Shown here: one piece after another, positions 45,054 through 50,468 of the stretch
Layout: each line of letters opens with the position of its first letter
Position numbering within the stretch: the stretch's first letter is position 1
Origin: Chloroflexota bacterium
Lineage (GTDB): Bacteria > Chloroflexota > Dehalococcoidia > Tepidiformales > Tepidiformaceae
Length of the DNA stretch: 64,000 bases
Direction of reading: 5' to 3'
Assembly: GCA_026702615.1 (NCBI GenBank)
Contig: JAPPBY010000033.1
Span: forward strand, 62,001-126,000
Position numbers and translations under genes: made by a program
The notes under the pieces: model-generated
Told to the model about the DNA's origin: nothing
The model's input: only the letters and a program-made list of their open reading frames with translations
The model's database searches: none

Positions 45054-46079
45054 CTACTGCAGCGACAACGCCCCGGCCGTCTGGGAGATGTTCTCCGAGA
45101 GACTCGCGAGCTGCGCCTTCAGCTGATCGACCGTGGCCTGAGAGACGGTCGGGCCGTTGGGGCAGTACTCGTCCGAGTGGTACTCGTCGTTCTCCTGGCA
45201 GTACGGCACCCAGCCGTTGCCGTGGCGAAGCGGAGCGAGGGTCTCGTCGAGCTCGTCGAACCCTGCGTTGATCGACGCCAGCAGGTCCGGATCGGCTTCC
45301 TCAAGGGCAGGCGTGAGGAGTCTGATCAGAGCCTTCGAACCTTCGAGGTTCGCATAGAAGTCCCACAGGTCCGTCTTCGAGTAGCGGTCTTCCTCGCCAG
45401 TGATCTTGCCCTGGGAGACCTCCTCGATGAGCTCGGCCGCGCCGATCGCGAGAACGGCGGGCGGGAGCTCGAGATCGGGGATGGAGTCCCGGAGGATGCG
45501 GAGGTCAGAGTCGAGCTTGTCGGCGAACTGAGCCGCACCGTCGGTGGTGTTCAGCGAGAAGAGGATGTACTCGAGACGGTGCCAGCCGGTGAACTCCGGA
45601 TCGTCCTCGTTCTCGAAGTCATCGACGCGGGCATCGACGGCGCCGTCGATCTCCTCGACGAGTCCGGCGATGGGCTCGATGCGCTCCCAGGCCAGGCGCG
45701 AGACCGCGTAGGCGGCCTTCGCCGCCTCAAGGTCGCCGGCGCGGATGGCATCGGTGAACGCGTCCGTATCGGAGATCATCTGGTCGACCTGGGCCATCAG
45801 GTAGCCACGGTAGCCGTCGACGGCGGACTGGATGAGGTCGTTCGACGTGGTTGTCTCAAGACCCTCGGTTGAAATGCCGGTGGCCGATCCGGATGCGGAC
45901 CCCGTGTGCGTGTGCGTACCGGAACCCGATGCGCTGCCCGTACCGGACGGGGAACCACCCTCGTTTACGGCAATGGGCCGGACCTCGCCTTCGTCGTCGC
46001 CGCACGCCACTACGAGGGCCGCAAGCGCAGCGACTGCCAGTAGCGCTGCAGCGCCCCTGACAAGGAATTGTGTCGCCAT
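45054..46079 (-). CDS. efeO: EfeO/imelysin-family iron-binding lipoprotein with His-Thr linker
   Basis: A 341-residue lipoprotein (signal and lipobox VVAC about residues 8-26). The linker after it, residues 30-70, is Ser/Gly/Thr-rich with the motif GTHTHTG. The imelysin (peptidase M75) domain follows, with the HxxE-type GWHRLEYILF near residue 165 as the metal-site signature; DFENEDDPEF lies just before. It presents iron to a permease. Strong ribosome site CAGGAGG 7 bases before the ATG. A single TTAGG half-site lies about 80 bases upstream. The same leader-plus-linker occurs in the lipoprotein at 49077-50468. Confidence 0.85.
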   Translation of the reverse strand: MATQFLVRGAAALLAVAALAALVVACGDDEGEVRPIAVNEGGSPSGTGSASGSGTHTHTGSASGSATGISTEGLETTTSNDLIQSAVDGYRGYLMAQVDQMISDTDAFTDAIRAGDLEAAKAAYAVSRLAWERIEPIAGLVEEIDGAVDARVDDFENEDDPEFTGWHRLEYILFSLNTTDGAAQFADKLDSDLRILRDSIPDLELPPAVLAIGAAELIEEVSQGKITGEEDRYSKTDLWDFYANLEGSKALIRLLTPALEEADPDLLASINAGFDELDETLAPLRHGNGWVPYCQENDEYHSDEYCPNGPTVSQATVDQLKAQLASLSENISQTAGALSLQ

Positions 46080-46295
46080 GAAAATGCCTCCTGTTTCTTT
46101 GGATAAGCCAGAACGAGCCCTCGTGATCGTCTTGACTTATCTTTTGAGCAAGTGGAGCCTAATCAGTGGCTGGCTCTCAAGCAAGTCAGCGACCTGCAGG
46201 AGCCCGCGAAACGGGAGCACCGCCTCGGCGATCTCCCCAGGGAGCGTTGATGGGCTGTCACCCTCGCTGGTACGAAGCCCCAGAATGGCCATGCC

Positions 46296-47792
46296 ATGGG
46301 AGGTGAAGTGGGGCTGCCCGTCCACGCGCGTCGACTGCTGGCGCACGCGCGGGCGCGTCCCGCGCTGACCGGCGCGGTCGCGCTCTTCGTGGTGCTGACG
46401 CTGGCGTACAGCGCCTCTATCGACGTCCGGGCGAGCCGGGGGGCGTCGATCACGGGCGACGAGCCGTTCTACCTGATCACGACGCAGAGCCTGCTGCAAG
46501 ACGGCAATTTCGACCTGCGCAACCAGTACGACACCCACTCGTACGAGTCGTTCTTCGACCACGCGGACGGCCTCTGGCGGCAATCAGTGCCGCTGAGCGA
46601 TGGGCGCGTGCTGAGCCCCCACAATCCCGGGCTCGCGGTACTCTTGGTGCCGGGCTTCGCACTCGGGGGTCTGGCGGGTGCGCAGTTCCAACTCGTGCTG
46701 ATCGCGGCGCTTACGTGGGGGCTGGCGTACGTGCTCGCGCTGCGGCTGACGGGCGCACGGCCGGCGCTCGTCTGGCTGGCGACGGCGGTGGTGGGACTCA
46801 CCGCGACCGCCTTCATCTACTCCTCGGAGATCTACCCGGAGATTCCGGCGGGACTGGCGCTTGTCGGCGCCCTGCTGGTTGCGACGCGCCGCGAGCGGCT
46901 CTCGGCGCTTCCGGTGCTGGCGATCGTGGTGCTGCTCTCCGTCCTGCCGTGGCTGGGGGCGAAGTACGCCCCGCTCGCGGCGTTGGTCGCGCTGTACGTG
47001 CTCTGGCGGGCGTGGCCGGCGGGGAGGGTCGTGCTGCTCGCGGGCGCAGCGGTCTCCGCAGCTGCCTATGCCGCCTTCCACCTCGCCGTGTACGAGTCGC
47101 TGACGCCTTACAACGTGAACGTCATCTACGCGGGGGAGACCACCGCCAGCACGATCGGCCAGCACGTCGAGATTGGTGACCGCGTGTACCGGCTGTGGGG
47201 GCTGCTCATCGACCGGCGCTTCGGCGTGGCGCGCTGGGCGCCCGTGCTGTTCGCGGTGGTGCCGGGAGCCGTGCTGCTGCTCCGGGGCGACGCGCGGTTG
47301 CGCCTCGTGCTGGGGCTGGTGGTGGTGCAGGTGCTGATCGCGACGTTCGTCGTGATCACGATGATGGGGTGGTGGTTCGCGGGGCGGACGCTCGTGACGG
47401 TGTTTCCGCTGCTGCCCATCCCGGTGGCGCTGCTGGCGATGCGATACGGCCGGTGGGGGCGGACGGCCCTCGCGGTGCTCGGACTCTATTCGCTGGGAGT
47501 CACGGCGGCGCTGGCCGAGGCGGGGAGGTCACGCGAGGTCGTCATCGCCGTTGACCCGTTCGACATGGGGGCCAACCTCTTCCAGGGGGTGTCGCGATTG
47601 TTCCCGCAGTACACCTCGTGGACGACGGAGACCTGGGTGCTCACGGTTCTGTGGCTGGCGCTGGGCGGGCTGGCGCTGGCGGCCTGGGCGACGCTGGACA
47701 GGGACCCGGGGAGGGAGAGCCAGCGCCGGCCAGCACCGCCGGATCAGCCGGAGGAATCCTCCAGCAGCCCCAGTTCCGCGAGGGCTTCGTGA
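46296..47792 (+). CDS. Polytopic membrane glycosyltransferase (GT39/ArnT/PMT-like)
   Basis: A 498-residue integral membrane protein with about 11-12 helices. After the first helix comes TGDEPFYLITTQSLLQDGNF (about residues 53-72), where the Asp-Glu pair matches the GT-C-fold D/E motif in the first outside loop. It would use a polyprenyl-phosphate sugar to glycosylate a lipid or protein outside. The start could instead be GTG at 46308, which has GGGAGG at 4-base spacing. The last 49 bases overlap the convergent BFN-like gene. Specific donor and acceptor unknown. Confidence 0.7.
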   Translation: MGGEVGLPVHARRLLAHARARPALTGAVALFVVLTLAYSASIDVRASRGASITGDEPFYLITTQSLLQDGNFDLRNQYDTHSYESFFDHADGLWRQSVPLSDGRVLSPHNPGLAVLLVPGFALGGLAGAQFQLVLIAALTWGLAYVLALRLTGARPALVWLATAVVGLTATAFIYSSEIYPEIPAGLALVGALLVATRRERLSALPVLAIVVLLSVLPWLGAKYAPLAALVALYVLWRAWPAGRVVLLAGAAVSAAAYAAFHLAVYESLTPYNVNVIYAGETTASTIGQHVEIGDRVYRLWGLLIDRRFGVARWAPVLFAVVPGAVLLLRGDARLRLVLGLVVVQVLIATFVVITMMGWWFAGRTLVTVFPLLPIPVALLAMRYGRWGRTALAVLGLYSLGVTAALAEAGRSREVVIAVDPFDMGANLFQGVSRLFPQYTSWTTETWVLTVLWLALGGLALAAWATLDRDPGRESQRRPAPPDQPEESSSSPSSARAS

Positions 47793-49014: not shown

Positions 49015-49076
49015 GGGGTGCCTCCCTGGTTGGAGGGTCGCCGGCGACCGAGGGCTGCCGCCGGCGACCCGTGGGT

Positions 49077-50468
49077 CTACTGCAGCTCGCCGACCTGCGC
49101 GGCGGTGATGCCGAGGCCGGCGTAAACAGACTCGAGGGCCGCCTGCACGGCGTCTCCGGCACCGGCCCTTGGGGGGCCGGCGGCGAGGTCGTAGTACGAA
49201 GCGATGGTCGCCGCGGCATCGGGGTCCACGCCCGCGACGAGCGGTTCGATGACGCGGAAGAAGGCCCAGCCCTCGGCCTGGTGCACGCGGGCGGCATCGG
49301 TGTCGCCCGCCTCCAGATCGCCGTCCATGACGTGGGCGTAGCGGATGGAGGCCTGGACGTAGGTGACGGTCAGCTCCCGCATGATCTTGGCCGTGGCGAT
49401 CCCGCCGCCGGCGGCGCTGCCTTCGACCAGCGCCTCGACGCCTTCCGTGAAGGCCGCCGCGAGCGCGTCGTTCACGGCCGTACCCGTACCGAAGTTGCCG
49501 CCCCGCTTGTCGGCGGTGGCGTAGGGCCCGCAGCCGGGTTCGACGCCGTGGTAGAAGGCCCAGCCCTCATCCCAGTTGTGGGGAGCGCCGGAGGCCGGGT
49601 CGAAGTTGTCCTGGGCGGCCTTGCCAAGGGCGACCACAAGCTCGTGGATGGCGTAGGCGACCAGGACCTGGTTCTGAATGCCCTTCTGGATGCCCTGGCG
49701 CCGCACGAGGTCGGACTCGCCCGCGAAGGCGCCCGTCCCTTCGATGGCGCTCATGACGAAGGTGTCGAGCCAGGTCGGATCGTCGTAGTAGGCGACGTAG
49801 TCGTTCCAGATGCGCTCGTCGCGCTCCGTGCGGGCGAAGCCGGCCAGCGTGCGAACGGAGCCGTCGCCCTTCACCGAGTTCCCACCCTCGACGTACACGC
49901 GCTCGATGGCGTCGTAGTCCAGGGGTGCGTCCTTCGGCAGGAGGCTGTTGATCTCGCACACGTCGAGCACGAGCGCAGCATGCGAGGCCACCTTGGAGAC
50001 GGGCTGGTAGGCGCCCATCGCGGCGGAGGCGTCCCCGCCACCTGTGCCAGTTGCCGTGCCGGTTCCGGTTCCGGTTCCGGTTCCCGTGCCCGTGCCAGTT
50101 CCGGTGCCAGTACCAGTTCCCGTGCCCGTTCCCGTGCCGGTACCGGTATGGGTGTGTGTCCCCGACCCGGTTTCGGTTCCGGTTCCCGTGCCGGTACCGG
50201 TGTGCGTGTGTGTGCCCGATGCCGAGCCGGTTCCCGTGCCGGATACGGAGCCGGTACCGGTATGCGTGTGGCTCCCCGTTCCGGTGCCGGAAACGGAGCC
50301 CGAGACGGAGCCCGACGCGGAAGCGGAGCCCGTGCCTTCATTGATGACTTCGACCGACCCCGGCCGGTCCTCACCATCATCGCCACCGCAGGCGACGACG
50401 ACACCGACGAGGGCGACAGCCGCCAGGGCGGCGATGATCCAACCCCTGCTTGCCAAAAGTGCTTGCAT
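49077..50468 (-). CDS. Lipoprotein with Gly-Thr/His-rich linker, possibly FEA1-like iron protein
   Basis: A 463-residue lipoprotein: signal to about residue 27 with VVAC, then a ~110-residue low-complexity linker of GT dipeptides with three HTHTG motifs, then a ~310-residue helical domain. Landmarks are [55 protein letters not shown] and [19 protein letters not shown], with a second [12 protein letters not shown] near 420, hinting at an internal repeat. It resembles my memory of FEA1-related iron-assimilation lipoproteins, a tentative match. The signal-proximal linker matches that of EfeO. In operon behind the large fusion gene (35 bases). Confidence 0.5.
50044..50340 (-). repeat. In-frame GT-dipeptide coding microsatellite
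   Basis: A ~300-base tract of near-repeats of the six-base unit CGGTTC/CGGTAC/GGGCAC encodes alternating Gly-Thr(-Ser-His). It lies wholly within the linker of the lipoprotein at 49077-50468. Repeat units vary at third positions, and in the longest pure stretch (about 50044-50150) the unit is monotonous enough for slippage by multiples of six bases. Confidence 0.85.

Follow-up and report, generated by a model that had tools for sequence, protein, structure and literature searches.

The two lipoproteins

Why should two lipoproteins with different folded domains begin in the same way? The question is raised by a 64,000-nucleotide stretch of a Chloroflexota genome (GCA_026702615.1, contig JAPPBY010000033.1, positions 62,001 to 126,000; hereafter the window, numbered from its first letter), in which a FEA1-related lipoprotein and an EfeO/EfeM-like lipoprotein are encoded on the minus strand. 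We suggest as the probable answer that one lipid-anchored, flexible tether has been reused to carry different, interchangeable heads that handle iron in the vicinity of FbpA-type importers. An earlier annotation made from the letters of the window (the sequence-only reading) had described two similar lipobox-proximal leaders with Gly/Ser/Thr linkers, and we confirm both in the following features.

49077-50468, minus strand: FEA1-related lipoprotein gene, 463 amino acids (NCBIfam NF038033, Pfam Fea1)
50334-50390, minus strand: its lipobox Cys27 and leader core (C, E, R, P and V columns invariant over 17 FEA1 leaders)
50025-50333, minus strand: its Gly/Ser/Thr linker (tandem repeats at 50056-50321 and translation)
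49080-50030, minus strand: FEA1-like helical domain (profile match; AlphaFold2 model, mean pLDDT 95)
45054-46079, minus strand: M75-only EfeO/EfeM-like lipoprotein gene, 341 amino acids (Pfam Peptidase_M75, PF09375, 116 bits)
45957-46004, minus strand: its lipobox Cys26 and leader core, CGDDEGEVRPIAVNEG
45861-45956, minus strand: its Gly/Ser/Thr linker (from the translation)
45057-45839, minus strand: M75 domain (Pfam; PDB relatives EfeO 7wgu and M75 7q1g)

The FEA1-related protein scores 427.6 bits against NF038033 (curated cut-off 250) and 100.8 bits against Pfam Fea1. By inspection of its translation it has a lipoprotein signal with the lipobox VVVAC, and lipid attachment at Cys27 is predicted. 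A profile search of the PDB for a solved relative of the FEA1 domain gave one chance row (E 0.85). Ot-Fea1 of Ostreococcus is reported to be an iron binder that carried ferric iron when purified (PMC7676907), and FEA1 of C. reinhardtii to be a periplasmic iron-deficiency protein whose mechanism is not known (PMC8098128). The window protein resembles algal FEA1, the phytotransferrin ISIP2a and the NF038033 family in having a FEA1 domain behind a lipobox and a low-complexity stretch; it differs in being bacterial and predicted to be lipid-anchored, in having FbpA genes nearby and in sharing its leader with other heads. We note two unusual relatives. One single open frame (L012:7884-9902) encodes two consecutive FEA1 domains behind one leader and is followed by FbpA. 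An Acidimicrobiia FEA1 (L010:7977-9659) has a C-terminal extension of about 130 residues and groups with the window's Dehalococcoidia clade in the FEA1 tree, a placement that suggests gene transfer.

The second protein scores 269.5 bits against the EfeO equivalog NF041757, just short of the curated cut-off of 270, and we have therefore named it EfeO/EfeM-like rather than EfeO. The match begins only at profile position 114 of 359 and the N-terminal cupredoxin domain is missing; the leader and linker occupy its place. According to PMC9174327, a cupredoxin, for which a copper/iron site is proposed, normally precedes the M75 domain in EfeO; an M75-only form (EfeM) is known, with binding of divalent metals reported; and HxxE and GEEDRY are motifs of the M75 domain. 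The window protein agrees with EfeM, with the M75 domain alone and both motifs present (HRLE for HxxE). By eye, the EfeO-like proteins L098-L100 of the phylum retain, between lipobox and M75 domain, a stretch that resembles cupredoxin, L101 is without it and L102 is a fragment. EfeO occurs in three of nine genomes of the window's genus, and FEA1 is present in all three. The likeness to the EfeUOB/M systems lies in the M75 domain and in the adjoining EfeB-type DyP peroxidase; the window differs from them in having a FEA1-type leader instead of the cupredoxin domain, in a genome without FTR1/EfeU. The latter (PF03239) has no match in the window genome (2.87 Mb, 95 % complete) and was dropped as the EfeO partner; it was matched in 4 of 14 control genomes.

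That the two folded domains differ, as the sequence-only reading held, is supported at the family level (Pfam Fea1 against Peptidase_M75; hhalign probability 3 %). Structure comparison of FEA1 gave a best Foldseek match of E 0.55, and the VIA-align scores with imelysin 3n8u (Z 5.5) and EfeO (Z 4.0) were not above those of unrelated helical proteins. The two domains might still share a remote common fold. A short local likeness was observed between about 49230-49310 of FEA1 and 45660-45740 of M75 (AGDLEAAKAAYAVSRLAWERIEPIA), for which the profile-profile probability is only 3 %.

The shared leader

The likeness of the two leaders was compared with chance by segment-wise shuffles that keep local composition, 4000 for each comparison. 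The observed pair score was reached by none of the shuffles for the whole leader, for the signal peptide plus core and for the linker, and by one for the core after the Cys, so that the alignment exceeds chance, with composition controlled, in both core and linker. The signal peptides alone are not significantly alike (793 shuffles scored as high). Used as a query in its own genome at E <= 1e-3, the EfeO-like protein has the FEA1 leader as its sole other match (64 % over 53 residues, E 3e-5). The same query found 13 places in 11 of 21 genomes with FEA1 loci; two are true EfeOs and the other 11 are matched by the leader part of the query only (residues 4-106). The NF038033 model, for its part, picks up the EfeO leader at residues 13-73 (E 1e-5). 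The core likeness of the pair alone is suggestive; core, linker and HTHTG likeness together are beyond chance. A recent duplication of leader DNA is a weak candidate, as the two genes align best over just 79 bases around HTHTG.

The leader on other heads

The constant part of the leader among relatives is not HTHTG but the lipobox-proximal core C-x(n)-E-x-R-P-x(1-3)-V. In the usual FEA1 leader the Cys is followed by a short acidic stretch, G-E-D-R-P, V-x-V-I and then Ser/Gly/Ala/Val repeats, and linker length varies. Acidimicrobiia members have a looser core (e.g. CGDDDGG-x-VR) and archaeal members another acidic start. Some leaders, L010, L013 and L016 among them, were missed by the regular expression and read directly from sequence. 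Judged from these relatives, the leader is a general feature of the FEA1-like lipoproteins of Chloroflexota.

A leader profile of 20 rows (17 FEA1, one cupredoxin, two EfeO) was searched in 393 genomes of the class. At E <= 1e-5 it found at least 23 places, comprising 17 FEA1-like, three EfeO and three cupredoxin heads and no other head type; the counts are lower bounds, as G568, the source of one profile row, is absent from the results. Beyond these 23, two rows (E 1.9e-4 and 4.8e-4) are cupredoxin-type by weak Pfam hits. Ten more rows have E 0.003-0.01: the six that were read resemble none of the three heads, three lie near a contig end and the tenth falls within an FbpA-type gene of G406. 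Since this profile was built from all three kinds of protein, the independent check is a linker-free profile made from FEA1 leaders only. On 153 lipobox candidates it gave 27.6-41.2 bits to the cupredoxin leaders, for five of which shuffles scored as high in 0, 0, 0, 1 and 1 of 10000; no unrelated lipoprotein scored above 16.5 bits. The reused surface anchor proposed from the sequence is thus supported and widened: its core stands on FEA1-like proteins, on M75-only EfeO and on stand-alone cupredoxins.

The last of these, small lipoproteins of relatives, provide a third head. Their Pfam hits are weak (among five carriers, SoxE 25.2 bits, Copper-bind 20.9 and Cupredoxin_1 16.5-23.9; one carrier has none). 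The type-1 copper ligands His43, Cys99, His112 and Met117 are invariant in all four aligned rows, and the AlphaFold2 model (pLDDT 90.7) has E. coli EfeO as its first solved-structure match (E 5.1e-6), followed by auracyanin. NF038033 reaches into one cupredoxin leader as well (E 2.6e-4). These proteins share the cupredoxin fold and the conserved His/Cys/His/Met with auracyanin and sulfocyanin; unlike those, they match EfeO best, carry the FEA1-type leader and adjoin FbpA in three loci (L166, L167 and L168).

The HTHTG units

The sequence-only reading counted one HTHTG unit in the EfeO-like linker and three in the FEA1-related linker, and these are the units present.

50256-50270, minus strand: HTHTG unit 1 of the FEA1-related lipoprotein, residues 67-71
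50196-50210, minus strand: unit 2, residues 87-91
50142-50156, minus strand: unit 3, residues 105-109
45900-45914, minus strand: HTHTG unit of the EfeO-like protein, residues 56-60

The corresponding DNA pattern (CAYACNCAYACNGG) has four matches in the whole genome, all in frame within these two genes, and the backward control pattern has two; the pattern thus shows no further lipoprotein with such a linker in the genome. Twelve other genomes contain 14 matches, seven of them in FEA1 or EfeO (G301 four, G304 two, G545 one) and seven elsewhere, which rules out HTHTG as a general marker of iron lipoproteins. HTHT is found in 4 of 38 FEA1 rows (some with truncated or masked linkers) and in two of the three leader-bearing EfeOs; the five cupredoxin-type carriers that were read are all without it. 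The claim of built-in His pairs thus holds for both window linkers but not for the anchor as such. The nearest named relative of the window FEA1-related lipoprotein (L007; metagenome-assembled Chloroflexi, 94 % identity) likewise bears three units on its FEA1 protein and one on its EfeO. The window genus also includes records labelled Dehalococcoidia (Chloroflexota); of two such loci, L008 (genome G607) has no unit in either protein, and L009 (genome G535) has a FEA1 without His and no EfeO. The Acidimicrobiia member of the window clade in the FEA1 tree, L010, has two units; L116 has one and its sister L114 none. We also note that the linkers of L013, L014 and L015 end His-rich in another way, with SHAHDH or SHAHDHDH directly before the FEA1 domain. 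As read from these linkers, HTHTG is an optional, recurrent decoration of the tether, and its metal binding is putative.

Two explanations of the units have to be weighed. They may have arisen incidentally, when repeats slipped in a GGN-ACN array where (AC)n reads Thr-His, and be neutral filler; we regard this as quite possible, if somewhat less than probable. Tandem repeats with periods of 6, 30, 54 and 60 make up the linker DNA, one unit contains an almost pure AC run, linker length is variable and the units are patchy, with gain or loss between near relatives, all of which make slippage a plausible source of new units. Neutrality fits less well with the codons. The four units contain 16 His/Thr codons, of which eight are not the same in the window and in L007; every one of these changes is synonymous, which argues for selection on the protein, although unit shuffling could contribute too. 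Over the linker codons there are 42 synonymous and 8 non-synonymous differences, a ratio that unit shuffling and protein-guided alignment may inflate. HTHTG is thus perhaps under selection.

The other explanation, that of the sequence-only reading, is that the His pairs capture iron or another metal on the tether and hand it to the head. It would account for the same synonymous changes, for the restriction of HTHTG to iron-type lipoproteins within the window genome, for the pattern of HTHT on the FEA1 tree (three changes, with shuffled labels as low in 43 of 500) and for the HAHDHDH that ends the linker in other relatives. However, most relatives that share head, leader and neighbourhood are without His, and lone His pairs on a flexible chain should have low affinity for metals and favour Zn, Ni or Cu rather than Fe. 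We consider metal capture unlikely as the explanation.

Gene neighbourhood and the FbpA-type protein

In the direction of transcription, the minus strand of the window encodes an FbpA-type protein, a ferritin-like and a ferrochelatase-like protein, a large LPG-synthase/phosphodiesterase/GT2 protein, the FEA1-related lipoprotein, a UDP-glucose-dehydrogenase-like protein, the M75-only EfeO-like protein and an EfeB-type DyP peroxidase.

55109-56155, minus strand: FbpA-type ferric-iron-binding protein gene, upstream of the FEA1 gene on the same strand (PDB relatives)
54339-55073, minus strand: ferritin-like open reading frame (ORF)
53743-54120, minus strand: short ferrochelatase-like ORF
50504-53689, minus strand: LPG-synthase-TM / phosphodiesterase / GT2 protein (Pfam)
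48202-49014, minus strand: UDP-glucose-dehydrogenase-like gene
43737-45044, minus strand: EfeB-like DyP-type peroxidase, directly downstream of the EfeO-like gene (Pfam Dyp_perox_N and Dyp_perox_C)

The peroxidase scores 406.4 bits against the EfeB equivalog TIGR01412, below the cut-off of 428, and 261.2 bits against the DyP superfamily TIGR01413, above the cut-off of 100.5. The product of 55109-56155 is probably FbpA-type, since 25 of its 29 PDB matches are named iron-binding or iron-transport proteins; the remainder are YfuA, SfuA, an unnamed family-1 protein and one aminoethylphosphonate binder. The grouping of FbpA, ferritin, FEA1, EfeO and EfeB genes within the window speaks for a tether reused under iron-handling heads.

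The company of FbpA extends to the relatives. We examined 36 loci, 35 of which have a FEA1 or cupredoxin head and one of which has none. An FbpA-type gene occurs in 27 of the 35, in ten of them on the same strand and within 211 bases of the head. Because the window genome has one strong FbpA copy (55109-56155) and one weak match, chance neighbours are unlikely. In L166 an LPG/GT-like protein, a cupredoxin lipoprotein, a FEA1 lipoprotein, FbpA, a permease-like ORF and an ATPase-like ORF follow one another, the last three with relatives in L168; by eye, an LPG-synthase/GT-like ORF precedes the cupredoxin-FEA1-FbpA run in L147 and L166. The likeness to FbpABC ferric importers lies in the FbpA-type protein near most leader carriers and in the row of FbpA, permease-like and ATPase-like genes in L166, whereas the window holds FbpA but no similar permease nearby.

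Two side observations concern the window. The ferritin-like and ferrochelatase-like ORFs (53743-55073, minus strand) sit between FbpA and FEA1 and give this part the look of an iron island. At 60203-62701 (minus strand) an 832-residue lipoprotein is encoded in which an AztC/ZnuA-type zinc-binding protein is interrupted by an AztD-like chaperone domain (NF038015, residues 222-604) bordered by two His/Asp/Glu repeat tracts, a natural AztC-AztD fusion.

Points against a reused tether

Several observations weigh against our reading. On the FEA1-only, linker-free profile the EfeO core is degenerate, its 17.0-17.3 bits lying only just above the 16.5 that the best unrelated lipoprotein reaches; on a profile of FEA1 cores only, shuffled versions of the window EfeO core scored equally high in 102 of 10000 and those of two orthologues in 165 and 85 (about 1 %). 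Among the 98 candidates scored in its own genome this core ranks second, at E 0.06 with the following one at 0.18, which is not significant alone. Lipoproteins of the examined genomes often start C-G-x-D-D, and a few unrelated ones also hold E..RP. As to the importer, 8 of the 35 head-bearing loci are without FbpA; in five of these (L018, L021, L023, L025 and L028) one flank is shorter than 3 kb, but L008, L164 and L169 have more than 3 kb on both, and L008, a near relative, has 8 kb on each. The window FbpA lies 5 kb from FEA1, many Acidimicrobiia loci carry FbpA on the opposite strand, and since the loci are mutually related the count does not represent 27 independent events. A relative of the L166 permease was sought in the window and none was found, and three minus-strand frames of 56101-58800, read by eye, contained no recognisable FbpB or FbpC; a pair beside the window FbpA was dropped as a candidate. 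With no FTR1 in the genome and no FbpB found nearby, an FbpA-type importer is a putative recipient of the iron.

These points leave room for a further explanation, that the leaders of EfeO and FEA1 are not related and belong to a generic lipoprotein type with an acidic start and a Gly/Ser/Thr tether, made alike by composition and convergence, which would suit the signal peptides, the barely elevated EfeO core and the common CGDD start but which we hold to be improbable, given the core and linker shuffles, the confinement of HTHTG to these two genes genome-wide, its joint presence or absence in the three genomes that hold both (two of them near-identical) and the EfeO query that matches only the FEA1 leader elsewhere in the genome.

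Proposed role of the leader

A tether reused under interchangeable heads remains the reading that we prefer. Its lipobox, core, tether, heads, neighbourhood and distribution are read from sequence, and what follows is a model. Both window proteins would carry one module, consisting of a lipoprotein signal peptide, a lipid-anchored Cys, the core C-x(n)-E-x-R-P-x(1-3)-V and a long, flexible and presumably disordered Gly/Ser/Thr/Ala tether. In Dehalococcoidia the module would have belonged first to FEA1-related lipoproteins and then have been taken over by stand-alone EfeO-type cupredoxins and, in the window genus, by an M75-only EfeO without cupredoxin. The tether would keep the folded head (FEA1, M75 or copper head) at the membrane's outer face within reach of FbpA, where the heads may load the FbpA-type importer with Fe3+ and the cupredoxin head, as a putative ferroxidase, could oxidise Fe2+. 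HTHTG would be an optional, recurrently gained insert through which the tether may acquire metal sites of low strength. A bolder version, which we offer as doubtful, would make of the ExRPxV leader a transferable tether dedicated to docking for Fe3+ import in Chloroflexota. It would recruit phytotransferrin-like FEA1 and, as proteins in their own right, the two halves of EfeO (cupredoxin and M75) to FbpA-type importers, with optional His pairs as a tunable pre-concentrator; this would amount to a modular, split EfeO supplying an ABC importer rather than EfeU.

The one open-access library searched contained neither the phrase 'FEA1-related lipoprotein', nor a paper on FEA1 together with FbpA, nor anything like a shared-leader system. 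If our reading is right, one reused lipid-anchored leader connects three iron-handling families, the FEA1/phytotransferrin-like proteins, the M75 domain of EfeO and the EfeO-type cupredoxins. Bacterial FEA1-related proteins would also be placed next to importers of the ferric ABC type, which offers a testable view of where their iron may be delivered and of how parts of EfeO may work without EfeU.

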